Positions 1 to 55,445 of a stretch of 55,659 bases of DNA are shown piece by piece. The notes below the pieces were generated by a model, which did not search any database, had not been told where the DNA came from, and saw only the letters and a list, made by a program, of their open reading frames with translations. Positions within the stretch are counted from its first letter, which is position 1; each line of letters starts with the position of its first letter. Origin of the DNA: a virus. A program made the position numbers and the translations under genes. The stretch covers positions 1-55,659 of the IMG/VR virus record IMGVR_UViG_3300005647_000001; one strand, written 5' to 3'.

Positions 1-120
1 GTTGGAAGGAATCCGATCAGGACTCTACCACAAGTTCAGCGAAGGTCCTTTCGGTCATTCCACGGGTCTGGGCTGTCGTCGGTCGCGGCGGCTGCTTTCG
101 CGCCGGCCGCCGCCAAGCGG
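1..120. repeat. Left copy of 120-bp terminal direct repeat
   Basis: The first 120 bases are identical to bases 55540-55659. This is either the overlap left by assembling a circular or circularly permuted molecule, or a true short direct terminal repeat. The repeat includes the 3' end of the initiator gene, so it lies in coding sequence rather than in a dedicated terminus, which favours the assembly-overlap reading. Confidence 0.95.
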
Positions 121-653
121 TCCTGAGCCTCTCGGAGGTTCGCCAAATTGGCGTTGCGGTCCTCGCGGCTCAACAACCGCGGGGGGTCCGTATCGCTCCC
201 CAAAGGTTCTTTATGGTTGTTTACGGATTGGGGGTGCGTTTGGTACCCCCCGCTCGGTGCATTTTGTACCCCCCGCTCGTGACCATTTGTACCCCCCGCT
301 ACTGCCCGGGGGGTGTGATTTGTACCCCCCGGGCCAGACGTCCATATGACCCCGGGCCCGTACTTGTGCAACGGCAGGATCGTGTACAAATTGGGGCGCC
401 GATCAACCGGTATTCTGGTGTCCGGGGCGCCGTTCGGGACGACGTGCAGCAGCCCCACGTCTTGCATCTTCCGAATGAGTTTCTTCACCGTCTGATGGTG
501 CATCTGGGTCTCATCAGCGATCAGCTGGTGAGACGGGTACGCGGTGGCGCTATCGCCGTTGACGTGGTTCGCGATGGACAACAGCACCAGGCGTTGCCCG
601 TTGGCGGTGTGCCGGTCATTGTCGAGGACCCACGCCATAGCCTGAATACTCAT
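36..653 (-). CDS. Helix-turn-helix replication initiator with internal iterons
   Basis: A 205-residue protein of the phage replication-initiator/replisome-organiser type. Residues about 36-72 form a winged helix-turn-helix (TAYPSHQLIADETQMHHQTV, then KKLIRKMQDVGLL). A low-complexity Gly/Pro/Thr middle section follows, then a charged, alanine-rich C-terminus. The middle is encoded by iteron-like DNA repeats (see separate entry), as in lambda O, where the origin lies inside the initiator gene. The likely role is binding these repeats and recruiting the host replisome; that is inference. The ATG overlaps the upstream stop (ATGA), with only a G-rich stretch as ribosome-binding site. It is the last gene of its operon and, on the closed circle, is followed by the hairpin at 55482-55518. 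Confidence 0.75.
   Translation of the reverse strand: MSIQAMAWVLDNDRHTANGQRLVLLSIANHVNGDSATAYPSHQLIADETQMHHQTVKKLIRKMQDVGLLHVVPNGAPDTRIPVDRRPNLYTILPLHKYGPGVIWTSGPGGTNHTPRAVAGGTNGHERGVQNAPSGGYQTHPQSVNNHKEPLGSDTDPPRLLSREDRNANLANLREAQDRLAAAGAKAAAATDDSPDPWNDRKDLR
243..331. repeat. Iteron array (putative replication origin) inside the initiator gene
   Basis: Four copies of GTACCCCCCG (plus strand) start at 243, 266, 289 and 322. The first three are exactly 23 bases apart and the fourth 33. Read on the minus strand each copy is CGGGGGGTAC(A/C)AA followed by a CAC. Because 23 and 33 do not share a phase modulo 3, the copies are read in different frames (GGT-N, GV-QN, GGY-Q), so DNA rather than protein sequence is being conserved. 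An inverted CCCGGGGGG block lies between copies 3 and 4. By analogy with lambda-type origins this is a candidate initiator-binding site and origin. Confidence 0.65.
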
Positions 654-5686: not shown

Positions 5687-6076
5687 ATGGATCTGACCCG
5701 AGTACTCCACATGAGACACATCGGGGAACCCGTCCCCAAAGACCGCCCCCGCTTCAACCGCAAAACCGGGAACGTCTACACCCCAAAACCCACCGTCGAC
5801 GCTGAGAAGGCCTGGCGCTCATCGATGCGGGAACAATGGGACCGACCCCACCCCATCGACCAAGAAGGGATCGTTGTCAGCCTCGCGTTCCATCTCGGCA
5901 CGCACCGCCGGCGCAGCGACATCGACAACCTGATCAAACTGGTGTTGGACGCCGGCAACAAGATCATCTGGGCTGACGACTGGCTCGTGACCGGGTTCCA
6001 CCGGGTGGCCCGCACCCGCGACAACATCAACCCGTGCACCGACCTCTCGGTCTACATCCCGAAAGGTTGGTCCTGA
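5687..6076 (+). CDS. rusA: RusA-family Holliday junction resolvase
   Basis: 129 residues, the usual RusA length. The N-terminus HIGEPVPKDRPRF matches the RusA GxPxPKxRPR start. The acidic catalytic segment is RRSDIDNLIKLVLDAGNKII followed by WADDWLV, providing the conserved Asp residues that bind metal. It resolves four-way junctions made during recombination. It is one of only three plus-strand genes and is transcribed divergently from the replication operon with which it must cooperate. Its 3' end overlaps the convergent gene ending at 6052 by 25 bases. Confidence 0.92.
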   Translation: MDLTRVLHMRHIGEPVPKDRPRFNRKTGNVYTPKPTVDAEKAWRSSMREQWDRPHPIDQEGIVVSLAFHLGTHRRRSDIDNLIKLVLDAGNKIIWADDWLVTGFHRVARTRDNINPCTDLSVYIPKGWS

Positions 6077-25497: not shown

Positions 25498-27606
25498 TCA
25501 GGTCGGGCAGGTCGCCAATGGGGCCATACAACCAATACGGGCGCCGGTCCACATCAGGTTCTTCAGGTTGATGGTGAACGCCTTGTGGCAGCCGTCTTTC
25601 CCGAGACCCTCATGGGTTTCCTGGAACATCCCGAAGACCCAGTTGCTCTTCGCGTAGGCCGGGGTGACCTGAGCGCCGAACCCGATCGATGGGCGGCGCA
25701 GAGCAAAGAAGTCTGAGCGGTCATAGATCCGGATGCGGTAGTCGCACCCGAACTTCCACGCGGCGTATTCCGTCGCGTTCGCCGCGCCGAGGCCGCTGTT
25801 CTCTTCGGTGGGGAATGAAGGAGTCGGGAACGGCGACGTTTCATCGCTGGCCAGGTCCAGCATTGACTTGATGGTGAACGTTGCGTCACCCTCGAACGCT
25901 GATGTGAGCAGCGAAGCGAGTTCTTCGCGGCCTTCGTGGCACGCACGTCGGTTGTCCCAGCCGAGGATCTTGGCCATGCCGGCGGGGATAGCGACGGTGT
26001 AGTCGCCGGCGGTGGTCCGGTCGTTGAACTGACCGGAACACGTGAGCGTCTGCACGATCTCTTCGAGGACCGGGATAGCTCCGAGCTGTTCGCCGGCAGC
26101 GTTCGCGAACCCGCACGCCGGGTCGGCTACATCGATGTTGACCCAGTGGGAGAATGAATCGATCTGAGCGAGGCGGTACTTGTTCCGCTCACGGATGAAC
26201 GCGGTTTGCAATGACCGGCGGGCGGCGCTGATCAACTGCTCGTTGCACGCCTCCAATTCTTCCGGCCATTCCATGCACGCAGCGATCGAAAGCATCCGAA
26301 CCTTGGACTTCGGTACGCATCCGGGCACGTAGCACTGCTTCTGCAGCGCGAGCATCGCGGCGTGAAGTTCCGCCTTCGGTTCGCCGTCAGCAATCGACCC
26401 ATACCAGGCGTCTCGAGCTTCGCAAAACTTTTTGCGGCGCTCGTCATCCCATACGGTCATGCCCTGGGTGACCAGCGGCAGTTCCCGGTAGTACTCGAGC
26501 TCGCACGTTGGAGCGGAGTACTCCTCGAATTCGTCGGCCAGCGGATCAAACATGGTCCGGCAATCCGGGATTTCGGTTCGCTGCGTTGGGACCACAGGGC
26601 AGTCACCGGTCGCTGACGCCTGGACACGGGCCCGGGCCCGGTCAGCGTTGGTGATGCCGTTGGCGTGGACGATCTGGCGGGACTGCGCCAGGTCGATGGT
26701 GTTGGCCGGGTTCACGCCGGGAGCGTCGATCCGGTACGAACCGAACTTCACGCCGGCCGGCATCAGCCCGCTGGACTGGTTCCCGGCGTTGTTCGACAGG
26801 TAGCTCGAGAACTGTTCAGCGATGTGGGCGTCGGTGATGTCCTGCCCGACGGTGATGTGTTCTTCCGCGCCGTTCGTGAACGCTGACGCGGCGACCATGC
26901 GGGCAGCGCGGCGTGGTTGCGCTGGGACCGGGGCCGGGGCCGGCCCGCCGCCACCGTTGGCGGGTGGGGCGCCGCTGATGAGAGATGCGGGGTCACGGTT
27001 GAACGTGGTGCCACCGGACCAGTTGACCGGGGCGCGTACCCCGTTGGCGAGCACTGCCACAGGCGTGACTACGCCGTCTTCGCCAACGACCAGGTCGATA
27101 TCGACGCTGGTCACCGGCGGATCAGCTGGCGCGTTCGGGTCCGCGGGCGGGTCGGCTGGCGGAGCGTTCGGGTCCGCGGGCGGCGCCGGCGGAGAGTTGG
27201 CAGCGTTCGGGTCCGCGGGCGGGTCGGCTGGCGGAGCGTTCGGGTCCGCGGGCGGCGCCGGCGGCGGGTCGGCTGGCGGATCGGGCAAGGCGTTCATCCG
27301 GGCGATGCGCTTGTCGGCTGCCTCGCTCATCACCAGGTAGGGGATCAGCGCCTGTTCTGATGCGTCCATATCCGCATCCAAGCCCGTCGTCTGGGCCGTG
27401 GACAACAGCGTCTGAAACGCGGTGCGGGCTTCGGTCACCCGCGCCTGGAGCGCTGGTAGCTCAATGGTCGATGTTTCTGCTACCAGGGCGTCCATCTCGT
27501 GGACGGTGGCGCCTTCGGGTGCGGGGCCTTCAAACGGGACCAGGCTGGCCGGGCCGTCGGCAGTGTTGATGGTGTAGAGCACACCATCAATCAGGACATA
27601 GATCAT
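25498..27606 (-). CDS. Major capsid protein with N-terminal extension (HK97-like)
   Basis: 702 residues, far longer than the usual 300-400. About 1-110 is a helical domain (ELPALQARVTEARTAFQTLL). About 110-175 is a PADPNAPPADPP-type repeat linker. About 230-700 is the capsid-like body, including ADRARARVQASA, WPEELEACNEQLISAARRSL, LQTAFIRERNKYRLAQIDSF, a GWDNRRACHEGREELASLL segment and the beta-strand C-terminus TPAYAKSNWVFGMFQETHEG. The N-terminal part may act as a fused scaffold removed during maturation; this is inference. The body has 15 cysteines, unusual for this fold. Good ribosome-binding site (GAAAGG). Confidence 0.75.
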   Translation of the reverse strand: MIYVLIDGVLYTINTADGPASLVPFEGPAPEGATVHEMDALVAETSTIELPALQARVTEARTAFQTLLSTAQTTGLDADMDASEQALIPYLVMSEAADKRIARMNALPDPPADPPPAPPADPNAPPADPPADPNAANSPPAPPADPNAPPADPPADPNAPADPPVTSVDIDLVVGEDGVVTPVAVLANGVRAPVNWSGGTTFNRDPASLISGAPPANGGGGPAPAPVPAQPRRAARMVAASAFTNGAEEHITVGQDITDAHIAEQFSSYLSNNAGNQSSGLMPAGVKFGSYRIDAPGVNPANTIDLAQSRQIVHANGITNADRARARVQASATGDCPVVPTQRTEIPDCRTMFDPLADEFEEYSAPTCELEYYRELPLVTQGMTVWDDERRKKFCEARDAWYGSIADGEPKAELHAAMLALQKQCYVPGCVPKSKVRMLSIAACMEWPEELEACNEQLISAARRSLQTAFIRERNKYRLAQIDSFSHWVNIDVADPACGFANAAGEQLGAIPVLEEIVQTLTCSGQFNDRTTAGDYTVAIPAGMAKILGWDNRRACHEGREELASLLTSAFEGDATFTIKSMLDLASDETSPFPTPSFPTEENSGLGAANATEYAAWKFGCDYRIRIYDRSDFFALRRPSIGFGAQVTPAYAKSNWVFGMFQETHEGLGKDGCHKAFTINLKNLMWTGARIGCMAPLATCPT

Positions 27607-27673
27607 GGGAGGATGCCTTTCAAATGTGGGATCGGTGGAACACGACCAACAGAAAAGACCGCCGTTTTGGGTT

Positions 27674-27694
27674 GGTTACCCGGACCGGGGAACC
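27674..27694. promoter_or_regulatory. Imperfect 21-bp palindrome upstream of the HTH gene
   Basis: GGTTaCCCG-gac-CGGGgAACC (plus strand) lies in the 200-bp gap between the capsid gene and the plus-strand HTH gene. The rest of this gap shows nothing except the promoter at 27781-27798. It may be an operator or a weak terminator hairpin. Confidence 0.35.
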
Positions 27695-27780
27695 TGAAAC
27701 GGGTTGTTCTGATGGTTACAGCGCACCGAACCGGCATCGCCAACGGCACCGAAGGTAGCACCCAGCCGCGCCGGTACCCC

Positions 27781-27798
27781 TATACCGGGGGTTATAAT
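27781..27798 (+). promoter_or_regulatory. TATA-G5-TATA promoter element of the HTH gene
   Basis: TATACCGGGGGTTATAAT, with the last six bases (TATAAT) as a perfect -10 box eight bases before the ATG at 27807. Same bipartite element as at seven minus-strand sites; here it drives the only plus-strand gene in the virion cluster. Confidence 0.65.
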
Positions 27799-27806
27799 CT
27801 GGGCAT

Positions 27807-28019
27807 ATGGCAACCCTTGATGACCTCACCCCCCTCGCAGAAACTGTGTCCCGGCTCGAACCGGAACTCCACGCGGCGATCACGGCCCGTAACCAGATGA
27901 TCGGTGAACTACTCGCCGACGGCGTATGCACCCAGCTTGAGATAGCAGAAGCGATCGGTGTGACCCAGCCAGCGGTGAACCGGATATGGCGCCGCGAGAA
28001 AATCGCTGCGCACTCCTAA
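27807..28019 (+). CDS. Small helix-turn-helix protein, candidate phage regulator
   Basis: 70 residues: an N-terminal helix pair (LTPLAETVSRLEPELHAAIT), then a helix-turn-helix LEIAEAIGVTQPAVNRIWRR near the C-terminus, similar to sigma-70 region 4 or Trp-repressor-like HTH modules. It is leaderless (TATAAT eight bases before ATG), on the opposite strand from its neighbours and convergent with the gene at 28016-28645 (4-base overlap). Its promoter carries the same element as other leaderless promoters, so it is a candidate regulator of that set and of itself; this is inference. Confidence 0.7.
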   Translation: MATLDDLTPLAETVSRLEPELHAAITARNQMIGELLADGVCTQLEIAEAIGVTQPAVNRIWRREKIAAHS

Positions 28020-28645
28020 CCCGGTGGTACCGGACCCCACCGCAGACCAGTGAACCATCGGCCGTGATCATCGACCGCCGGCGGGACCTTCATCTCTCCG
28101 TCGGCCCACGGCGGTTCTGGCGGCATCATGTTGTCGCCTTGGAGCGACGGCACCCACCTGGTGACTTTGCCCCGCAGATCGCCAATCTGGCCGCCTGGAA
28201 CTGACATCGGCTGATACCGCCGGCCCGGTGACCGCCGGTTCGGTCGGTACAACACCCTGGACAACGTGGTCCTGACCGACAGGTCCTGGTTGAACATCGC
28301 GAATTCGATGAGCCCGACAGCTACCCCCAACGATGACCACCGGACCGGTTCAGCGAACATGCCCACCCACCGGATCACCGAAGCGTGCACAACGTCGAGG
28401 GTCACCAGAATCGATTCGTCCATTGACGCGGTCAAACCCATGTTCTGCGTTTGGAGGTTCATCGCATAGGACGTCATTGCTTTGCGGTTCAATTCCGGAT
28501 CCGGGGCGTACGCGCTGACTTCGCTCGCTGATCGGTGCACCAACGCCATCACCAGGTCGTTGGCCGCAGCTATAGACACCCGGTCTCCGGGCGTCACGTT
28601 CACAGACACCGCATGTGACAGCGGGTCATCCATTGGGACCCTCAT
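28016..28645 (-). CDS. Head-region protein (hypothetical)
   Basis: 209 residues, helical, methionine-rich centre (SYAMNLQTQNMGLTASMDES) and a proline-rich C-terminus. ATGA overlap with the upstream gene. Position just before the capsid gene suggests a morphogenesis role. No family was recognised. Confidence 0.6.
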   Translation of the reverse strand: MRVPMDDPLSHAVSVNVTPGDRVSIAAANDLVMALVHRSASEVSAYAPDPELNRKAMTSYAMNLQTQNMGLTASMDESILVTLDVVHASVIRWVGMFAEPVRWSSLGVAVGLIEFAMFNQDLSVRTTLSRVLYRPNRRSPGRRYQPMSVPGGQIGDLRGKVTRWVPSLQGDNMMPPEPPWADGEMKVPPAVDDHGRWFTGLRWGPVPPG

Positions 28646-28917
28646 CGTTGCGTCCGTCGTTTCGCTGCGCGGCGCTCCCGTTTCGTTGCAGCGGCAGCGC
28701 GGCGGTCCTCCGATGCTCTGGTGGACCGGGACGAACGGCGGGTATCAGCCGGTGATCCACCGTCTGATACCCGTATCAGGTTCCGGAGATGCCCGGCTAT
28801 TTTGCGTTCGGCGGGGTCGTTCAAATAGACGGTGACGGTCCCGTCGTCGGCTGTTACCTGCCGGGCGGGGACGGTGATAGACCCGACTCGGGCCTCGATG
28901 GGTTCAGTTGTTGCCAT
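28642..28917 (-). CDS. Small basic-tailed protein
   Basis: 91 residues: N-terminal beta segment (VGSITVPARQVTADDGTVTV), a helix, and a strongly basic C-terminus (TKRERRAAKRRTQR) that may bind nucleic acid. Part of the head operon; function unknown. Confidence 0.55.
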   Translation of the reverse strand: MATTEPIEARVGSITVPARQVTADDGTVTVYLNDPAERKIAGHLRNLIRVSDGGSPADTRRSSRSTRASEDRRAAAATKRERRAAKRRTQR

Positions 28918-34478: not shown

Positions 34479-35930
34479 TCACATGTCGTCGTCCGGGTCA
34501 GGTTCGAACTCCGCGGCGATCGCCTCCGGGATCTTCACCCCCAAAATGTTCAGTGTGTTCAGGAACTGTTGCGCCGGTGGAAGGCCCCGCTTCACTGCCT
34601 GGACCATTTCACCGACCTGGCTTCGGTATGCGAGCAGCGCCGGGTTCCCATCGGACTCGAGCATCCACTTTGTCAGTGTCTCATCAGCTACCCGAACCCG
34701 GGTACCGCGCCGATTTTGGCGAACATTCCATACGTCTGTGTCTTTGGTATGTGGGTGCTCGGCTTCGGCGATCGCTACCGGATCCACATCAGTGATTTCG
34801 CCGCCAGTCAGGTACTCGATCCTGGCCTGGGTCTGATTGTCACGCGTCATCGCAATGTTGGCCACATAGCCGACCACCGCCGCTGTGGCCTGGGGGACGT
34901 TCGCCGCGTCACGGACCGCGGCCATCAGATCGTCGAACGCTTCGACCCATCCCGCCGGCGGTTCATCGCCGCGACCGTTGATGCGTTTCGGCTGTTTCGC
35001 CTTCGGTATCTTCAACTTCGATTCGCCGTCGGGCATGTGACGCGTCCAGTCCTTGCAACCCTCAGCGGTGTCAACGGTGTCAGTGTGGGAGTACCGTCGG
35101 CGCACCGACCACACGTGGCACGGTTCGCCCCGATGTTTCGCGGCGGTGGTCCCCAACGCCGCCATCGATGACAACGCCCCGGGCCCGTAATACTGCGGGA
35201 TCGGGTTCCGGACTTCGCCAGACACAAACTTGACTTTGATGCCGTCGCCCTGGTGTTTGGCTTTGATGTCCGCCCGGGTCGCGGTGATCGTTCGTTTCAC
35301 CTCGACTTCGCTTTTGCACTGAGACGCCAGCGACGCCCACGTCGTGTACGTCGACCGACTCGGGGTCGCTTTCAAAAACGCGGCGTACACATCCGGGTCG
35401 TTGAGCAGCTTCGCCGCTGCCACCGCTGCTTCCAATGGCCATGTCCCATCCGCCACCAGCCTCGATTCGGTCTCCGGGAGTTCCATAATCGCGAGCCGTT
35501 GCGTAACCCACTTCTTCGATTTTCCCAGGTCTTTCGCGATGTCAGCGACGGTCGTGTCGGTGGCGACCAGGCGGGCCAGAATTTGGGCGGCTTCGACATG
35601 GTCCAGGTCGAGGCGGTGCAGGTTCTCGGTGGCTTGCAATGTGAGACGCTGCCGCTCAGTCAACCCCGATTTGATGATCACAGGGACGGTCAACAGTTTG
35701 GCTTTGCGGGCTGCGGCGAGGCGGCGATGCCCGGCGATCACGTGGAAAAGTTCCTGGTCGAGTTCGTCAGGTCGGGCGATGATCGGGGTGAGGACACCGA
35801 GCTCTGCGATGTTCGAGATGAACTCTTTGTTTAGCACTGGTTTGCGGTTGTCCGGGTCCGGGACCAGGTGGTCCAGGGCCACAGCTGGTTCGTATCGGTC
35901 AGACACGTCTAGTGGTTTGGTGTCGGTCAT
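34479..35930 (-). CDS. ParB/Spo0J-like DNA-binding protein
   Basis: 483 residues. The ParB N-terminal domain at about 20-100 includes LVPDPDNRKPVLNKEFISNI and VIAGHRRLAAARKAKLL (the GxRR-type box). A KorB-like helix-turn-helix follows: DLDHVEAAQILARL and IAKDLGKSKKWVTQRLAIME. The C-terminal half is unique. ParB proteins bind CTP and specific sites; no ParA is present, so a partition role is doubtful and a regulatory or packaging role is possible. It is read from within the end of the previous gene with an AAAAGGA ribosome-binding site. Confidence 0.85.
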   Translation of the reverse strand: MTDTKPLDVSDRYEPAVALDHLVPDPDNRKPVLNKEFISNIAELGVLTPIIARPDELDQELFHVIAGHRRLAAARKAKLLTVPVIIKSGLTERQRLTLQATENLHRLDLDHVEAAQILARLVATDTTVADIAKDLGKSKKWVTQRLAIMELPETESRLVADGTWPLEAAVAAAKLLNDPDVYAAFLKATPSRSTYTTWASLASQCKSEVEVKRTITATRADIKAKHQGDGIKVKFVSGEVRNPIPQYYGPGALSSMAALGTTAAKHRGEPCHVWSVRRRYSHTDTVDTAEGCKDWTRHMPDGESKLKIPKAKQPKRINGRGDEPPAGWVEAFDDLMAAVRDAANVPQATAAVVGYVANIAMTRDNQTQARIEYLTGGEITDVDPVAIAEAEHPHTKDTDVWNVRQNRRGTRVRVADETLTKWMLESDGNPALLAYRSQVGEMVQAVKRGLPPAQQFLNTLNILGVKIPEAIAAEFEPDPDDDM

Positions 35931-36261
35931 TGGTGTTGTCCTTTTGGGTTTGTTGTTGGATTGTGTTGATGAGAGTTTGCAGGCGGTCAGCCCACGGCAC
36001 GGGGAACGGTTCGGGTGATGGCGGCGCCCCCACGGGGGGTATAAGCCATTCCGCAGCGGGGTCTTCCACGGTGAGGTTGTCGCCGTCTGATGCGATCCGG
36101 ACTGACATCCCCCATGGGCCACGCACGGTCAGCGCGGCCATGTGCCGGTTGGAGACGCATGCGCCGGCGACCATAGCGAGGCATCCTTGGCGGATCTGTC
36201 GGATCAGGGCCGGGCCGTCGTCATCGACAACGAGCCCGGTTAGTTGGTAACGGTCAACCAT
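35899..36261 (-). CDS. Hypothetical protein, leaderless, before ParB
   Basis: 120 residues: N-terminal beta strand (YQLTGLVVDDDGPALIRQIR), central CLAMVAGACVSNRHMAALTV and a Gln/Thr/Asn-rich C-terminus whose codons contain the ParB ribosome-binding site (32-base overlap). TATAAT lies six bases before the ATG within the bipartite promoter element. No family was recognised. Confidence 0.65.
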   Translation of the reverse strand: MVDRYQLTGLVVDDDGPALIRQIRQGCLAMVAGACVSNRHMAALTVRGPWGMSVRIASDGDNLTVEDPAAEWLIPPVGAPPSPEPFPVPWADRLQTLINTIQQQTQKDNTNDRHQTTRRV

Positions 36262-36416
36262 CCCCGCATTATACCCCCCCGTATACGGGATGGGTGGTTG
36301 GGGGCGGCAGGGTCCCGAACCCCTTGTTGGGTGGGGTCGTAGGTGGGATCCCTTCGGTAGCGTGTCCGCCGGTCCCGAGAGAACCGGGGGATGTAGCCGT
36401 TGACCGCCCCCGCCAT
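36240..36416 (-). CDS. Doubtful small ORF spanning the promoter at 36268-36284
   Basis: 58 codons: basic start (IPRFSRDRRTRYRRDPTYDP), proline-rich end. Its last 22 bases overlap the leaderless gene and it would run through that gene's promoter. Weak ribosome-binding site (AAAGTG). It fills an otherwise empty gap of about 200 bases, but may not be translated. Confidence 0.25.
   Translation of the reverse strand: MAGAVNGYIPRFSRDRRTRYRRDPTYDPTQQGVRDPAAPNHPSRIRGGIMRGWLTVTN
36268..36284 (-). promoter_or_regulatory. TATA-G6-TATA promoter element
   Basis: Read on the minus strand: TATACGGGGGGTATAAT, then six bases and the ATG at 36261. The -10 is a perfect TATAAT. Orientation class B (G-run in the transcribed direction). 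Confidence 0.65.
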
Positions 36417-38776: not shown

Positions 38777-39352
38777 TTACCCGTTCTGCGCTTTGCGTCT
38801 CGCTGTCAGATCGACCACGCCGGCCGCTGCGGCGGCGGCTTGGGCGTTCGCCCACAGTTCGGCGTCGGATAGCTGTACGGCGGCCCCAGCGGCCGTACCG
38901 TCGACGCCTGGCGCCGGGCCGGCGGCGGGTGGTTCCTCGGCGATGACGCCGGCGGACAGCTTCAACGCTTTGTCAGACAGGATCGCGAACGCGATAGCGA
39001 TGTCTTTCATCGCCCGAGGGTCTTTGGCCATATCCGCAGGGTTGAGGAGTTGCACCGCTTTGCGGATCTGCGCTCGTAGCTCAGCTGCGGTGACCGATGT
39101 GTTGTGGGCTTCGGCGGCGTGGATCCGGAGCAGGTTTGTGCGGGCCCGGGTGCGGGCTGTTTCGTGTTCGGCGGCGACCGATTCGGCCTGCTCGGTTTCC
39201 CAGTCGATGCCGGCGGTTTCCCATTGTTGTTTCCATCGGCTGATCGTGGACCGTGACACCCCGCACGCTTCCGCGGTCGATTTGATCGATCCGCCATCCC
39301 GGATCATCTGCAGCGCTTTGACCTGGTCCGGGGGGAGCGCCTTGTCACTCAT
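38777..39352 (-). CDS. Terminase small subunit
   Basis: 191 residues. The N-terminal helix-turn-helix (SIKSTAEACGVSRSTISRWK), a long charged coiled helix (about 50-100), then an Ala/Gly-rich C-terminus are typical of small terminases that bind the packaging site and stimulate the large subunit, which follows 46 bases later. Starts in an 8-base overlap (ATGAGTGA) with the zinc-binding gene. Confidence 0.8.
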   Translation of the reverse strand: MSDKALPPDQVKALQMIRDGGSIKSTAEACGVSRSTISRWKQQWETAGIDWETEQAESVAAEHETARTRARTNLLRIHAAEAHNTSVTAAELRAQIRKAVQLLNPADMAKDPRAMKDIAIAFAILSDKALKLSAGVIAEEPPAAGPAPGVDGTAAGAAVQLSDAELWANAQAAAAAAGVVDLTARRKAQNG

Positions 39353-41179: not shown

Positions 41180-41418
41180 CAGCGATCGCGGCGGATCGGC
41201 GGGCCCTCGGCAGGAGCGTCCGGACCGACCCTGGTCGCGGTGTAGATCCACCGGCCGGTGTCACCGAAGTCGACGCCCTCACGGAACGTCGCCCGGTACT
41301 CGGTGGTGTCGACAACGCGACCGACGAAGACCCCGTTGATGAGGCCACCCTGGGCGCGTCTCGCCGCGGTCATTTCTGCCAGTTCGGCGACGGCATCCGT
41401 GTCTATCCGGACGATCAT
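41179..41418 (-). CDS. Small hypothetical protein before the methylase
   Basis: 79 residues beginning MIVRIDTDAVAELAEMTAAR, then a beta-rich VVDTTEYRATFREGVDFGDT section. Overlaps both neighbours by a few bases. No family was recognised. Confidence 0.55.
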   Translation of the reverse strand: MIVRIDTDAVAELAEMTAARRAQGGLINGVFVGRVVDTTEYRATFREGVDFGDTGRWIYTATRVGPDAPAEGPPIRRDR

Positions 41419-42347
41419 GCTGCGGTCGCTATGCGGGTAGACCCTGGTGCGTAGATTTCGATTTCGGCGGCGGCGTCAGCGAAACTGATGCGGCGGACCG
41501 TCGCCCACCCGATGATGAATCCGCGCACGTTCTCGATGTGGCGGTGCACGCCGGCGAACGTCCGGAACGAAGCGAACGTCAGGCAGGTCAGGACAATGGT
41601 TTGCATGGCCACGTCCAGCGGCAACCGGTACGTAGACCCGTCATTGCTCACTGAGCTGCTGTATTTAGCCCGCATGAGCGGTTGAGTGAACAGCTGGATC
41701 AGGGACGCGGCCGTTGCTCCTGCGATCCCGCCGTGCCCGGCCGGGTCGCCGCCGTGGCCGGGTGCGCCCTCGGTGTAGTGGGTCATGTTGAACCCCCACC
41801 ATTCCTCAGCGCGGACCACCCAGTCGCGCCACTTCATCCGGAATATGACCTGGATCGCCCGGACGATGTGCCAGCCGACGTACATCACGGGCCAGATCGT
41901 CGCGCCGATGAAATCGATGGACCCGTTGGTCGCCCACCCGAACCGTTCCGGGGTCCGATAGTTGATCCCTTGACCGGTGAGCCATTGGAGCAACACGAGC
42001 AGGAGCATGAACGGGTGATCCATCCGGACGGTCTGCGCGCATTTCGGGCCCGATAGTTGCCCGTCATCATCCAGGCAGTGGTCTGCGAGCGGTGGCATTG
42101 CGTGGGCGGGGAGGCCGTGGCGGGCCATGAACTCTGCCGGGAACTGATATTGCGCTTCGGTGGATACCGCCAACACCTCATCCATTTGGGCTTCGAACTC
42201 TGGGGAGTCAGCGGGTGTGGTCGGCGGGGCTTTTAACCATCGTGGCTCGCCGACGATCTTCATCACGTTCACGAACGGTTTCTTGTTGAAGACTTTGGGG
42301 CGGGGTGGGCGGGGTTGGCTGGCGGTGGTGTTGTCGTTTGGGGTCAT
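41415..42347 (-). CDS. Hypothetical protein with hydrophobic helices
   Basis: 310 residues, Thr/Pro-rich at the start. Several hydrophobic segments (HPFMLLLVLLQWLTGQGI; SIDFIGATIWPVMYVGWHIV; MQTIVLTCLTFASF) make it possibly membrane-associated. A glycine-rich stretch (GAPGHGGDPAGHGGIAGATA) lies between. It starts eight bases after a TAACAT -10 box, following the duplicated terminator-promoter cassette. Function unknown. Confidence 0.6.
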   Translation of the reverse strand: MTPNDNTTASQPRPPRPKVFNKKPFVNVMKIVGEPRWLKAPPTTPADSPEFEAQMDEVLAVSTEAQYQFPAEFMARHGLPAHAMPPLADHCLDDDGQLSGPKCAQTVRMDHPFMLLLVLLQWLTGQGINYRTPERFGWATNGSIDFIGATIWPVMYVGWHIVRAIQVIFRMKWRDWVVRAEEWWGFNMTHYTEGAPGHGGDPAGHGGIAGATAASLIQLFTQPLMRAKYSSSVSNDGSTYRLPLDVAMQTIVLTCLTFASFRTFAGVHRHIENVRGFIIGWATVRRISFADAAAEIEIYAPGSTRIATAA

Positions 42348-42350
42348 GGG

Positions 42351-42430
42351 TTCGGATGTTAGCGGCCGGTGTGGGCTGGGACGCGAAACACCCCCCGGCT
42401 GGGAACCTGAGCCGGGGGGTGCTGCGGGGG
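42351..42430. repeat. Terminator-promoter cassette, copy 1
   Basis: Nearly identical to 43111-43190 (offset 760): the last 60 bases are exact, and so is TTCGGATGTTAGC at the promoter end. Only a seven-base segment (42364-42370) differs. On the minus strand it reads terminator hairpin, short linker, then a TAACAT -10 box and the start of the gene at 42347. Confidence 0.8.
42389..42421 (-). terminator. Terminator hairpin in cassette copy 1
   Basis: A perfect 12-bp stem CACCCCCCGGCT/AGCCGGGGGGTG with a nine-base loop is followed on the minus strand by TTTCGCG. Probably ends the transcript of the small zinc-binding gene at 42443. Confidence 0.65.
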
Positions 42431-42442
42431 GGGTGGGGGGGG

Positions 42443-42655
42443 TTAGTAGTGCCATTCGTTCAGCCACGATTGGTGACACCCCGAGCACAGGTCTCCTTCG
42501 CCCATGGTTTCGGTGTACCAGCCGCTGTCATGGGCCAGGAACGAGGCTTCGGCCGTGTCGCCGTCAGTGTCGAAACTGATCGTGGTTTCGCATCCGCTGT
42601 TTTCGCAGTGCAGGGTTACTACGGGGTTGGTCTTGGTGGCTGTGGTGTTGTCCAT
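42443..42655 (-). CDS. Small zinc-finger-like protein, leaderless
   Basis: 70 residues with LHCENSGCETTISF and GDLCSGCHQSWL, a possible four-cysteine zinc site. Begins MDNTTATK directly at the transcription start expected from a TATACT box six bases upstream. A monocistronic gene closed by the cassette terminator. Confidence 0.65.
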   Translation of the reverse strand: MDNTTATKTNPVVTLHCENSGCETTISFDTDGDTAEASFLAHDSGWYTETMGEGDLCSGCHQSWLNEWHY

Positions 42656-42661
42656 AACCCC

Positions 42662-42679
42662 AGTATACGGGGGGTTATA
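42662..42679 (-). promoter_or_regulatory. TATA-C6-TATA promoter element
   Basis: Minus strand TATAACCCCCCGTATACT, six bases before the ATG at 42655. The second TATA half forms the -10 (TATACT). Confidence 0.65.
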
Positions 42680-42691
42680 TGGGGTTGCAAG

Positions 42692-42889
42692 TTATGGGGT
42701 GCGGTTCGGTTCCCATGACGCCGGCGCCAACCGCACAACCTCAGCCGATGCCAGGACCGGGATGATGTGGAAAGCGTAGTGCCGGACGCCGCTGGCGATG
42801 TTGCCTCGGGAGTATCCGGCGGCCTGCCATGACTCCACCATCTGCCGGATGACAGCGGGATCTGCTCCGGGGATGCGTGGGGCGGTCAC
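42692..42889 (-). CDS. Small helical protein
   Basis: 65 residues beginning with GTG in a GTGA overlap. IPGADPAVIRQMVESWQAAG and YSRGNIASGVRHYAFHIIPV give a helix-turn-helix-like outline but no clear family. Confidence 0.5.
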   Translation of the reverse strand: MTAPRIPGADPAVIRQMVESWQAAGYSRGNIASGVRHYAFHIIPVLASAEVVRLAPASWEPNRTP

Positions 42890-43107
42890 AGGTTCGGGTC
42901 CGCTGACTTGACCCACCGGCAGGTGTACACCGCTGCTTCGGCGGTGAGTAGCCCGATGATCTCAGGGACGCACATGCCGTCACTGGTTTCTGTGACCGTG
43001 ACGCTGTTCCCGTCATCGGTGGTGACCACCTGGATGATGATCTCTTTTTCTACCCACCCGTTCAGGTGATCATCATCTATCCGGCGAGGGAGGGTGTTGT
43101 CGCTCAT
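42886..43107 (-). CDS. Small hypothetical protein after cassette copy 2
   Basis: 73 residues with acidic N-terminus (RRIDDDHLNGWVEKEIIIQV) and a cysteine pair (TSDGMCVPEI, VYTCRWVKS). Begins eight bases after the TAACAT box of the second cassette copy. Unknown function. Confidence 0.55.
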   Translation of the reverse strand: MSDNTLPRRIDDDHLNGWVEKEIIIQVVTTDDGNSVTVTETSDGMCVPEIIGLLTAEAAVYTCRWVKSADPNL

Positions 43108-43110
43108 CGT

Positions 43111-43190
43111 TTCGGATGTTAGCTGCATGCGTGGGCTGGGACGCGAAACACCCCCCGGCTGGGAACCTGAGCCGGGGGGTGCTGCGGGGG
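43111..43190. repeat. Terminator-promoter cassette, copy 2
   Basis: Second copy of the 42351-42430 element, 760 bases upstream in transcription. It separates the leaderless gene at 43643 from the gene starting at 43107. The exact agreement over 60 bases points to recent duplication or gene conversion. Confidence 0.8.
43149..43181 (-). terminator. Terminator hairpin in cassette copy 2
   Basis: Same perfect 12-bp stem (CACCCCCCGGCT/AGCCGGGGGGTG) and nine-base loop as copy 1, followed by TTTCGCG on the minus strand. Confidence 0.65.
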
Positions 43191-43202
43191 GGTGGGGGGG
43201 GA

Positions 43203-43643
43203 CTATTTGTGGTTGCCGGAATCGATCAGTTCATCGATCAATCGACCCATTTCCCAACAGGCGTCGCTGCGCTGTGCCCACAACCTGTCGACCGTGAACG
43301 TCCGGAGATCAACAATCACCGGTTCGTCGTCGCCCATGACATACGCCTCGAATGGGCCGAGCGTGCCCTTGCTGGGGTTCGATTCAACCGGTTCGGACCA
43401 TTCGGCCACATACTGGTCGGTTTCGGTGCCGTCACCGTCGGTGTGCCGGTAGGCGAAAATTCGGCGGTCGTCGTCGTCACAGATGTTGACTGGTCGAAGG
43501 AACCGGGCGAATCGGCGCATGTTCTCAGCGAACCAGTACTCAGCTTGTTGTTCTGATCCGTCGACACCGACGAAACGGCTGATGAGTCCGTTGTCTTCGG
43601 CGAGGTCGTTGGGGGTGGGTGCTGCTTTGGTTTTGTTGTCCAT
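43203..43643 (-). CDS. Hypothetical acidic protein, leaderless
   Basis: 146 residues beginning MDNKTKAA. Contains QAEYWFAENMRRFARFLRPV, NICDDDDRRIFAYRHTDGDG and an EPVIVDLRTFTVDRLWAQRS segment. No family was recognised. TATAGT six bases before the ATG; terminator cassette follows the stop. Confidence 0.65.
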   Translation of the reverse strand: MDNKTKAAPTPNDLAEDNGLISRFVGVDGSEQQAEYWFAENMRRFARFLRPVNICDDDDRRIFAYRHTDGDGTETDQYVAEWSEPVESNPSKGTLGPFEAYVMGDDEPVIVDLRTFTVDRLWAQRSDACWEMGRLIDELIDSGNHK

Positions 43644-43649
43644 ACCCAC

Positions 43650-43668
43650 ACTATACGGGGGGTTATAA
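43650..43668 (-). promoter_or_regulatory. TATA-C6-TATA promoter element
   Basis: Minus strand TTATAACCCCCCGTATAGT, six bases before the ATG at 43643; -10 is TATAGT. Confidence 0.65.
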
Positions 43669-46210: not shown

Positions 46211-46486
46211 TCAAACCGTTGGGGGGCACTGGTTGGCGTTGTTCTGCAGGAACGTGACGCGGTCTTGTAGCCGGCGGTTCTCGACGTGTAGTTCGGCGTT
46301 GCGTACCACCAGGTTCTCGATGCGGTTCCGGAGGCCGCGTAGCCACGCTTCGCCGCGGGTGGTGTCCCATGCCCCGAATACGAACGGGTTGTTGAGATCG
46401 CCGGCCAGGGGCATGTTGAGCATCATCGTTTCGACGTCGGCGGGGTGTTCGTAGCCGGCGGGCTGGTTTGTGGTTTGGGTGGGCAT
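46211..46486 (-). CDS. Coiled-coil protein at operon start
   Basis: 91 residues. The C-terminal half is a leucine-zipper-like coiled coil (GLRNRIENLVVRNAELHVEN, RRLQDRVTFLQNN). Strong ribosome-binding site (ACGGAGGACC). It is the first gene after the promoter at 46527-46544, so it heads the operon through 43724. Confidence 0.65.
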   Translation of the reverse strand: MPTQTTNQPAGYEHPADVETMMLNMPLAGDLNNPFVFGAWDTTRGEAWLRGLRNRIENLVVRNAELHVENRRLQDRVTFLQNNANQCPPTV

Positions 46487-46526
46487 GGTGGTCCTCCGTT
46501 TGGTGTTGGGTTGTTGTCAACCCATG

Positions 46527-46544
46527 ATTATACGGGGTCTTATA
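46527..46544 (-). promoter_or_regulatory. TATA-C4-TATA promoter element with leader
   Basis: Minus strand TATAAGACCCCGTATAAT; the -10 is TATAAT. Unlike the other sites the start codon lies about 40 bases downstream, after a GGGTTGACAACAACCC leader hairpin and a good ribosome-binding site. Confidence 0.6.
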
Positions 46545-48470: not shown

Positions 48471-48868
48471 TGGCTGGTCTCTTTCGGGTTGCGGTTGCGG
48501 TGTTGGTGCCAGTAGGCGTCGGGTTGCTGCCGGAGTTTCCAGGAGTCCCATACCCATGGTGGCCGGCCGGCTTCGACCATGGCGCCGTGGCGTGGTAGGT
48601 CGCCGGTGTCGACGCGGCGCTGGTGGCAGTCGGCGATGAGCGGGCATTCGGTCCGGCATAGGTGCACGTGCCGGCGGATTGTTGGTAGGTCCTGGTTGTT
48701 CCATTCGAGGGCGTGCTCGAGGCACGGCGCCCGGTGGTAGGCGAGGCGTTCGTGCCATGGGCGGGGGAGCTGCTGCGGTGGCGGTTCTGGTTCTGGGGGC
48801 GGGTTGCGTAGGCGGTTGTATTGGCCGAGGGTGAGGGTCCCGTAGTCGGATGCGTCGTAGCGGGTCAT
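48467..48868 (-). CDS. WhiB-like iron-sulfur protein
   Basis: 133 residues. APCLEHALEWNNQD is followed about 15 residues later by HLCRTECPLIADCHQRRVDT and GDLPRHGAMVEAGRPP. The four cysteines (C, then C-x3-C-x5-C) match the WhiB cluster-binding pattern, although the classical GVWGG turn is replaced by RHGAMVEAG. WhiB-like proteins are actinobacterial redox-sensing transcription factors; phage copies (e.g. WhiBTM4) alter host transcription. ATGA overlaps on both sides. Confidence 0.7.
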   Translation of the reverse strand: MTRYDASDYGTLTLGQYNRLRNPPPEPEPPPQQLPRPWHERLAYHRAPCLEHALEWNNQDLPTIRRHVHLCRTECPLIADCHQRRVDTGDLPRHGAMVEAGRPPWVWDSWKLRQQPDAYWHQHRNRNPKETSQ

Positions 48869-49539
48869 CGGATTTCGTAGGGGCCGGGGGTCGGTGGGCG
48901 TTCCCCGTCCGGGAACGATGCGGAGTAGATCCCGTGCTCGAGGGTGGTGGGCCCGTAGACAGCCAGGCCGAGGCACGCGGTGCGGGCCAGTTCTGCGATG
49001 GTGAGTCCGATGGGTTGGCCGTTGGTGTCTTCGCCGTAGATCATGACGGGCCCGTAGATGTTCTGTCCCATGATCATGGTGGCGATGGAGCATTCACCCA
49101 GGAGACCCACCAACCGGGACCGCGCCTGTTCGTTCGGGTCGCCGGCCCATAGGCGGACCTCTACCCCGTCCTCAGCGTGGGTCAGGGTGGTGGCGTGGTC
49201 CGGGAACGGGACCGGCACCAACACTTTGGAACTGACCCACACCGAGTCGCGGGGCCCGTTCAGTTGGGTAAGGAACGGGGCGGCGGACCTACCGCCCAGG
49301 ATGACCAGCGCATAGCGGGGTGGTTCCGGTTGCGGGACGGGTTTCAGGCCGGTCTGCTCTTGTTGCCATGGGTAGTTCCCATATAGGGGAGTTTCGCCGC
49401 GACCGTGGCACACGTCGCAGTCTCTGACGGTGTCGCCGGTGGGTCCGATCCCTGAGCCGCCGCAGGAACCGCACGGCTCCCACGTCACGTTCAGGTCACG
49501 CGGCGGCGGATGGTGTGGTGTGGATGGTGGTGTTGTCAT
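48865..49539 (-). CDS. DnaJ-type zinc-finger protein, leaderless
   Basis: 224 residues. N-terminal EPCGSCGGSGIGPTGDTVRD and CDVCHGRGE form a DnaJ-like finger. A C-terminal domain (RYALVILGGRSAAPFLTQLN to YGPVMIYGEDTNGQPIGLTI) is of unknown fold. TATACT seven bases before the ATG indicates a leaderless transcript. Confidence 0.65.
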   Translation of the reverse strand: MTTPPSTPHHPPPRDLNVTWEPCGSCGGSGIGPTGDTVRDCDVCHGRGETPLYGNYPWQQEQTGLKPVPQPEPPRYALVILGGRSAAPFLTQLNGPRDSVWVSSKVLVPVPFPDHATTLTHAEDGVEVRLWAGDPNEQARSRLVGLLGECSIATMIMGQNIYGPVMIYGEDTNGQPIGLTIAELARTACLGLAVYGPTTLEHGIYSASFPDGERPPTPGPYEIR

Positions 49540-49546
49540 ACCCCCC

Positions 49547-49564
49547 AGTATACGGGGTGTTATA
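49547..49564 (-). promoter_or_regulatory. TATA-C4-TATA promoter element
   Basis: Minus strand TATAACACCCCGTATACT, seven bases before the ATG at 49539; -10 is TATACT. Confidence 0.65.
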
Positions 49565-49663: not shown

Positions 49664-49816
49664 CTACTCGCGGTAGCGTGCCCGCACCCCGGAAGCGGCC
49701 AAGTACCAGTACATGACCGGGATGATGACCGCCAACGCCACAATCGCTACCGCCGCGAGAGGGACCACCACAAGGTGGCGGGCCGCGCGCCGCACCGCGC
49801 AGGCTATGGCCGCCAT
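49664..49816 (-). CDS. Small membrane protein (50 aa)
   Basis: 50 residues: basic N-terminus (ACAVRRAARH) and one transmembrane helix (LVVVPLAAVAIVALAVIIPV), then MYWYLAASGVRARYRE. Starts 13 bases inside the end of the previous gene. Unknown function. Confidence 0.55.
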   Translation of the reverse strand: MAAIACAVRRAARHLVVVPLAAVAIVALAVIIPVMYWYLAASGVRARYRE

Positions 49817-50220
49817 GACGCCACCCGGATCAGGTCCTCATTGACCAACGCCGCGACCGTGACAGCCGCCTCAGCGGAACTGAACACCAGGCGGGCGCCG
49901 TCCTCATCAGCGACAAACAAGTGATCACGATCCCGGACCACCACAATCCGGCCGTCCACGACAACCGCGCGAGCCGCGATCGGTTCCGTGGGGAAGTAGT
50001 TGGTGCGCTGCTCCTCCTGGTCCGCTTCATACTCACCCCACAAGTACTCGGCGTCCATGATCTCCCGATACGCCCAATGCCGGTACGTGTTAGCACCAAC
50101 CTGCGGGATGACCACCTCGGTCACATATTCCTCGAACACGCCCTGGTTGAGACGGTCCAAACGCTCCACCGCCACGGCAGCAGAGTCAAGGGTCATAACT
50201 GAATGTTGGTTGTTGTCCAT
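49804..50220 (-). CDS. Hypothetical acidic protein, leaderless
   Basis: 138 residues beginning MDNNQHSV. LDRLNQGVFEEYVTEVVIPQ, WAYREIMDAEYLWGEYEADQ and AARAVVVDGRIVVVRDRDHL. No family was recognised. TATAAT lies six bases before the ATG; earlier in-frame codons run through the promoter and are rejected. Confidence 0.65.
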   Translation of the reverse strand: MDNNQHSVMTLDSAAVAVERLDRLNQGVFEEYVTEVVIPQVGANTYRHWAYREIMDAEYLWGEYEADQEEQRTNYFPTEPIAARAVVVDGRIVVVRDRDHLFVADEDGARLVFSSAEAAVTVAALVNEDLIRVASWRP

Positions 50221-50226
50221 AACCCA

Positions 50227-50244
50227 ATTATACGGGGGGTTATA
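50227..50244 (-). promoter_or_regulatory. TATA-C6-TATA promoter element
   Basis: Minus strand TATAACCCCCCGTATAAT, six bases before the ATG at 50220; the best match to consensus, with a perfect TATAAT. Confidence 0.7.
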
Positions 50245-53015: not shown

Positions 53016-53319
53016 CGGGATCACCCGCAGATTCCATTCGTTCTGTTTCGGCGGACCGGACCAGGTGCAGCAGCGGGCTGACCGCGTCCGGGCTCATCTG
53101 ATTGCTCGCGCCGCGGGCCAGGTCCTGTTCGTACTCGGCGCGGGCGGCGGCGGTCAGGAGCTGCATCGCGACCCGCCGGGCAGCTGCGGCCGGGCAGTTG
53201 CCTATGACGTTGCCGTGGTCAGGGGTGATCACCCGGATCCTCACGAACCCGGTCAGCGACTCGGGGGTGATGCCGTGCTCGACTTCGATGCGGTCAAGGC
53301 CCATTAGTTGCCGGGGCAT
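53008..53319 (-). CDS. Hypothetical protein
   Basis: 103 residues: MGLDRIEVEHGITPESLTGF, then VIGNCPAAAARRVAMQLLTA and helical C-terminus. TGATG overlap with the leaderless gene upstream. No family was recognised. Confidence 0.55.
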   Translation of the reverse strand: MPRQLMGLDRIEVEHGITPESLTGFVRIRVITPDHGNVIGNCPAAAARRVAMQLLTAAARAEYEQDLARGASNQMSPDAVSPLLHLVRSAETERMESAGDPDA

Positions 53320-53603
53320 CAGGGCACCGGGGGAGATGTCGGCGCGGTGGCGTGGTGGGAACCGTCGGGCTTGTATATGCCGGCGTCGTACAGGTAGCAG
53401 GCCGTCGAAGCTTCGATCAGGGTGGGGTAGTCCTGAATCCATGTTTGGCTGCCGCCGGCGTTGTTTTGGTAGACGGCCCAACCGTGGGTGGTGCGGGGTG
53501 GGCGTTCGTTGACGTCGCCGGATGTGATGGTGCCGTCGTCGTCGATGAACCATCGGACCGCGAACCGCGGTTCGGGTTGGGTGGTGTCAGGGTTGTTGTC
53601 CAT
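53319..53603 (-). CDS. Hypothetical protein, leaderless
   Basis: 94 residues beginning MDNNPDTTQPEPRFAV, then WFIDDDGTITSGDVNERPPR and WAVYQNNAGGSQTWIQDYPT. No family was recognised. TATAGT seven bases before the ATG. Confidence 0.65.
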   Translation of the reverse strand: MDNNPDTTQPEPRFAVRWFIDDDGTITSGDVNERPPRTTHGWAVYQNNAGGSQTWIQDYPTLIEASTACYLYDAGIYKPDGSHHATAPTSPPVP

Positions 53604-53610
53604 ACCCACC

Positions 53611-53628
53611 ACTATAACCCCCCGTATA
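53611..53628 (-). promoter_or_regulatory. TATA-G6-TATA promoter element
   Basis: Minus strand TATACGGGGGGTTATAGT, seven bases before the ATG at 53603. Orientation class B: the core is the exact reverse complement of the class A core. Confidence 0.65.
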
Positions 53629-55103: not shown

Positions 55104-55445
55104 TCAGCTGTTATCCCAGTCTTCGATCGAGTCGGTCGTGGCCTGCTCGAGGTTGATCTCGTCGCCGTCGGTGTCAACCAGGCGAAGGTTCCCCGATTGT
55201 TCTTCCTCAGCCCGCAGAACCATGTCCTGGATTTGGGCGAAGCTCTTGGACGCGGGATCGACAATGGTCAGCGTCTGCAGCGTGATGGACTGATAGTCGA
55301 CCTCGCCGCTGTTCTTTGTGGCTTTGGTGCCTTTGTCAGCTACCGAACCTTTGGCGAGGATGTAAACCTCGTCGTGAAGGTCGTGGACGTCAGCGACGGC
55401 GGCGGATCCGGCAAACCGGGTTCTGATGGCATTTGGTGTTGTCAT
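55104..55445 (-). CDS. Hypothetical protein, first gene of early operon
   Basis: 113 residues: DVHDLHDEVYILAKGSVADK, SITLQTLTIVDPASKSFAQI and an acidic C-terminus. No family was recognised. It heads the operon that continues with WhiB; TATAGT lies eight bases before the ATG, suggesting a leaderless transcript. Confidence 0.65.
   Translation of the reverse strand: MTTPNAIRTRFAGSAAVADVHDLHDEVYILAKGSVADKGTKATKNSGEVDYQSITLQTLTIVDPASKSFAQIQDMVLRAEEEQSGNLRLVDTDGDEINLEQATTDSIEDWDNS

Follow-up and report, generated by a model that had tools for sequence, protein, structure and literature searches.

Nearly all genes of the phage window analysed here (the whole stretch of 55,659 bases, 63% G+C) lie on the minus strand, and within its head region a small gene for an HTH protein runs the opposite way. 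What would such a gene control? A preliminary description had pictured it as a candidate master regulator, acting on itself and on a dispersed set of leaderless genes through an element common to their promoters.

A counter-transcribed HTH gene in the head region

Replication and recombination genes (RecT-like, helicase) occupy the left end of the window. They are followed by genes for tail, head, portal, ParB, large terminase, small terminase and DNA methyltransferase, and numerous small genes without assigned function fill the right part. Neither an integrase nor a ParA was found among the matches of the 61 proteins scanned against Pfam and the 31 scanned against PHROGs, which are part of the called genes, and the whole window gave no Rfam match. 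A C-run/G-run inverted repeat, CCCCCCGCTACTGCCCGGGGGG, lies near the left end at 294-360.

The HTH ORF (Table 1) is a real gene, as first described. Its codon log-odds score was 16.5, against a median of 16.3 for 70-codon windows in known genes of this phage, while the other five frames of the same stretch scored from -1 to -41, all below 0; 18 of 2016 antisense control windows reached 16.5. It lies between two minus-strand genes of the head region, 28016-28645 and the 702-aa gene, and is thus opposed to both neighbors, meeting the former tail to tail with overlapping stop codons (28016-28019). It is the lone plus-strand gene among the head genes, as described, but not in the window, in which a RusA Holliday-junction resolvase gene (5687-6076) is also on the plus strand, opposed to minus-strand neighbors. 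The 702-aa protein had been called the capsid protein, a designation that we could not uphold: it had no PHROG or Pfam match, and its single-sequence structure model (pLDDT 37) was discarded. The gap between the two divergent genes holds an imperfect 12-bp inverted repeat (27645-27676), possibly within the leader of the 702-aa gene. No terminator- or promoter-like consensus was found within 27400-28700.

Residues 30-63, approximately, of the 70-residue product form the HTH. The protein matched positions 9-37 of the 48 in the Pfam HTH_24 profile (PF13412) with 23.9 bits (cut-off 21.9, E 3e-5). It also matched phrog_6831, a "transcriptional regulator" family, at E 1.4e-6 (positions 8-39 of 68). 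Both are weak family matches that span little beyond the HTH core. A single-sequence AlphaFold model (pLDDT 82) was all helix (4-37, 43-50 and 54-68) and lacked the wing, a beta hairpin after the HTH, that is expected for the winged-HTH superfamily of HTH_24. Searches with this model against the PDB and viral model libraries returned no significant fold match, and by sequence no solved structure matched better than E 0.2. The score against Pfam KORA was 13.8 bits (cut-off 26.7; E 0.07), which does not place the protein in the KorA/TrfB family.

The position in the head region raises an alternative in which the protein would assist packaging or virion structure as an accessory of the small-terminase type. 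In agreement with this, small-terminase families of phages matched weakly (phrog_2538, E 0.012), and the best tblastn match in named phages (E 0.06) coincides with a gene for a gpP-like terminase. However, the HTH gene has its own predicted promoter, opposed to the head operon, and a better small-terminase candidate adjoins the large terminase at 38777-39352, with HTH_28 and HTH_23 matches (HTH_28, 1.6e-10). We consider an accessory role very improbable.

Table 1. Genes and element copies discussed in the text, with window coordinates.
Feature	Position	Strand	Remarks
HTH_36 protein	36..653	-	Rival DNA-binding protein
HTH_17/MerR-like small protein, 88 aa	4772..5038	-	Rival regulator
702-aa head-region protein	25498..27606	-	Divergent from HTH gene; capsid by position only
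Element of HTH gene, TATACCGGGGGTTATAAT	27781..27798	+	Flipped orientation, TATACCGGGGGTTATA; predicted -10 box 27793-27798
HTH protein gene, 70 aa, ATG start	27807..28019	+	Coding score, Pfam/PHROG matches, structure model
ParB-family protein	34479..35930	-	ParB_N and HTH_ParB domains, KorB match weak; candidate regulator, as rival or partner
Element copy, flipped	36270..36285	-	Upstream of ORF 35899-36261 and ParB gene 34479-35930
Element copy, forward, exact TATAACCCCCCGTATA	42664..42679	-	Predicted leaderless ORF 42443-42655
Element copy, forward, exact	43652..43667	-	Predicted leaderless ORF 43203-43643
Element copy, forward	46529..46544	-	ORF 46211-46486, probable 34-nt leader with Shine-Dalgarno-like sequence
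Element copy, forward	49549..49564	-	Predicted leaderless ORF 48865-49539
Element copy, forward, exact	50229..50244	-	Predicted leaderless ORF 49804-50220
Element copy, flipped, exact consensus on plus strand	53613..53628	-	Predicted leaderless ORF 53319-53603

The TATA-N8-TATA element and its predicted promoters

The element ahead of the HTH gene was said to recur at other genes, and the recurrence proved stronger than claimed. The window has eight instances of TATA-N8-TATA, a pattern of which shuffled sequences gave none (0.00 expected). Among the 30 TATA words of the window, 8 pairs lie less than 60 bp apart, and every one of these pairs is spaced 12 bp. All eight elements are located 24-26 bp upstream of a start codon. 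The core between the two TATA boxes is a C-run, giving the 16-mer consensus TATAACCCCCCGTATA, which is oriented forward relative to the gene in five copies and flipped in three (27781, 36270 and 53613). The HTH gene's own copy, TATAACCCCCGGTATA, carries one change from the consensus and has a dyad, CCCC-TATA-CCGGGG, at 27777-27790. A C-run/TATA/G-run dyad surrounds one TATA box at 7 of the 8 elements; overall it was found at 8 of the 30 TATA words and at 1.6% of random positions. A loose first pattern, CCCCNATANNGGGG, was found 25 times against 21.8 expected, which is chance level; the C/G run by itself is therefore not what marks these sites. Element sites were also scored with a PWM, whose matrix was built from the same eight sites. 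Compensating palindromes in the flanks of the elements were tried as well; own flanks exceeded swapped flanks weakly (permutation p 0.03), and the result was not used. In the stretch 49537-49564, boxes CATA, TATA and TATA follow one another at 12-bp steps, the third, a CATA/TATG box, being 49537-49540, so that the -10 box there would be common to two overlapping elements.

The gene-side TATA reads TATANT in 8 of 8 elements, 6-8 nt before the start codon, and we infer that it is the -10 box of a promoter that is leaderless or, once, short-leadered. Most of the element genes therefore look leaderless, as had been stated for the whole set. At the HTH gene the distance from -10 box to ATG is 8 nt, rather than the 6-7 nt of the other seven, and its mRNA may thus have a 2-nt leader. 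The transcript from the copy ending at 46544 is probably not leaderless, because a well-scored ORF starts 34 nt on with a Shine-Dalgarno-like sequence ahead of it. The element-promoter set is also not uniform in its predicted transcript starts: GACAACA is found there in six cases (42652, 43640, about 46518-46520, 49537, 50217 and 53600, all on the minus strand), lying within coding sequence except in the leader at about 46518-46520, and is absent at the HTH gene and at 36261.

The element may instead be simply a promoter type that RNA polymerase, whether of host or phage, reads without any dedicated regulator; the role of the C/G run and of the second TATA would then be to tune promoter opening. 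Every copy does combine a good TATANT box at leaderless distance with a G-rich stretch before the start, and three copies, all forward (42679, 43667 and 50244), are preceded at a 17-bp spacing by a -35 resembling TTGCAA/TTGCAT. With the best of three spacings taken, TTGACA was matched at four or more of its six positions in 4 of the 8 elements, versus 9% of random positions. Yet all eight copies retain the upstream TATA though a -10 box alone would suffice, the asymmetric core is flipped in three of them, and leaderless-looking genes at 55445, 42347 and 43107 manage without the element. We regard a promoter without a regulator as quite unlikely. Since the -35-like box is present at only three copies, the conserved part is the spacer/-10 region, where repressors bind.

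Two of these element-free starts belong to what we regard as a second, different class of repeated leaderless promoter. Two stretches of about 99 bp (42344-42442 and 43104-43201), about 93% identical, lie upstream of the genes 41415-42347 and 42886-43107; in both, a TAACAT stands 8 nt ahead of the ATG.

Candidate binders of the element

The flipped copies bear on what kind of site this is. Flipping leaves a -10 box in place, TATA being self-complementary, and the occurrence of both orientations is more in keeping with an operator over the -10 box than with a sigma-factor element, a directional signal in which flipped copies would be unexpected. The circuit that we propose would work as follows. 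A promoter of its own, leaderless or almost so, would drive the HTH gene; it is opposed to the minus-strand head operon and one of the eight that carry the common 16-bp element. At each of these the gene-side TATA would provide the -10 box, and the other TATA, together with the C/G run, would form an operator that functions either way round. The HTH protein, probably a dimer on half-sites spaced 12 bp, would cover the -10/spacer region and, once enough of it had accumulated, would silence all eight units, its own gene included, repressing rather than activating them. We offer this identification of the HTH protein as binder and repressor tentatively, at a little short of an even chance, from features of the DNA and the predicted protein.

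The dyad-like, orientation-independent, -10-overlapping form of the element makes autoregulation and control of a dispersed set a reasonable suggestion. The HTH gene has the operator-like element in its own promoter, where it overlaps the predicted -10 box, a putative autoregulator feature, and autoregulation is a common arrangement for a one-gene unit with an HTH product and such an element. The word "master" is not supported: there are only eight sites, the window contains other DNA-binding proteins, and no copy occurs between 1 and 27,780, so that the tail and replication genes have no element copy of their own.

Having the element ahead of its own gene does not mark the HTH protein as the binder, because the ParB gene also lies behind an element copy. 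Another phage protein could instead use the element as its operator; the likeliest is ParB, the HTH_17 and HTH_36 proteins being further candidates. The HTH gene would then be a target among others, and the HTH protein would have some other role. ParB has ParB_N and HTH_ParB domains and scored 22.2 bits against KorB, just under the cut-off of 22.3. The ORF directly behind the element at 36270-36285 overlaps the ParB start by its end, and the 16-bp length of the element and its orientation-independent outer boxes would also suit ParB. On the other hand, ParB sites are normally palindromic throughout, and the middle of this element is an asymmetric C-run. Every copy, moreover, overlaps a predicted -10 box at a fixed distance, as partition sites need not. 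We judge operation by another phage protein unlikely, though a contender to be kept in view. That the HTH protein and ParB, both encoded behind copies, jointly read the orientation-independent operator phage-wide, in a KorA/KorB-like circuit, seems to us improbable.

Relatives and known systems

The virus stands isolated within the collections searched. A 37.6-kb contig, IMGVR_UViG_3300005654_000077, was the sole match of the capsid-region and portal proteins and the sole other carrier of the element in IMG/VR, with the same eight copies. It was 100% identical to the window over the compared pieces (10,210, 19,540 and 21,491 bases) and is therefore not independent. No independent relative keeping the HTH protein or the element was found in these collections. 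The large terminase matched three distant contigs at 30-35% identity; of 20 window proteins compared with pieces of these contigs the terminase alone matched, and they contained neither HTH protein nor element. The helicase matched 24 distant contigs, in which the HTH protein and the portal protein were each found in 0 of 24, and the one TATA-N8-TATANT match among them was no more than a reversed-pattern control gave. Apart from the identical contig, viral contigs yielded only a 32-residue HTH-core match to the HTH protein, and no relatives were found in named phages at E 0.01 or in the genome_contigs collection.

Two looser element patterns matched 12 and 8 other contigs; those inspected (7 of the 12 and all 8) were chance-like and mostly of other base composition. 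Four contigs with two TATA-N8-TATA each were rejected as relatives, since they all held the same stretch, and they had no tblastx match to the window.

A host transcription factor might also bind the element, the phage exploiting it for timing. All the phage-encoded binders are candidates, and hosts with differing sites would escape an element scan that covers a single genome for each species. A strict pattern of the element with its promoter had 0 matches in the genome_contigs collection; we consider a host factor a long shot.

A search of open-licence PMC literature met no account of a TATA-N8-TATA element, which may have been published elsewhere. The closest precedent would be the Corndog-type mycobacteriophages, with different sequences. 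According to the Cluster O account (PMC4351075), a DNA-binding gene (Corndog 53, Firecracker 51) is opposed to the structural operon, and its promoter, PL2, is predicted to be leaderless. A protein with a ParB-like domain is present, and more than 30 copies of a 17-bp dyad repeat are dispersed through the genome, to which the authors were unable to give a function. The Corndog group and our phage have in common the counter-transcribed DNA-binding gene within the structural operon, its predicted leaderless promoter, a repeated dyad element that is denser in the right part of the genome, and a ParB-like protein. They differ in that most of the Corndog repeats lie away from promoters, whereas all eight elements here are at predicted promoters. 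A reversed gene group occupied the same place in 3 of 3 Cluster O records (Firecracker, Catdawg and Dylan); in these the DNA-binding gene heads several small genes, whereas the HTH gene here stands alone. Homology between the HTH protein and Firecracker gp51 was not detectable (BLASTP E 0.15 over 7 residues), and the Corndog 17-bp repeat occurred in the window at chance level.

Other systems resemble the element in part. Cluster A stoperators are dispersed sites of a phage regulator that are asymmetric, keep one orientation and stop elongation (PMC9283540, PMC4351075). The elements would likewise be sites of a putative phage regulator dispersed across the genome, but they overlap predicted -10 boxes and occur in both orientations. 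The Start-Associated Sequences of Cluster K, a 13-bp GGGATAGGAGCCC thought to act in translation and preceded in some cases by 17-bp inverted repeats (PMC3203893), are similarly short repeats just upstream of many start codons; GGGATAGGAGCCC was at chance level in the window. In RK2, the small HTH repressor KorA and the ParB-family protein KorB act at shared, autoregulated promoters, with several operators per replicon (PMC4889941, PMC11790492). The likeness here, by analogy, would be a small HTH protein, a ParB-family protein and elements at several promoters, with no cooperation implied, and the KorA consensus operator was found in the window at chance level.

With eight defined sites and few candidate proteins, the hypothesis is directly testable. 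If it is true, a 70-aa protein and a 16-bp element would make up a compact switch, usable either way round, since its self-complementary outer boxes give a -10 box in either orientation. It would also suggest a mechanism for the unexplained Corndog-type pattern of a backward DNA-binding gene together with dispersed dyad repeats.
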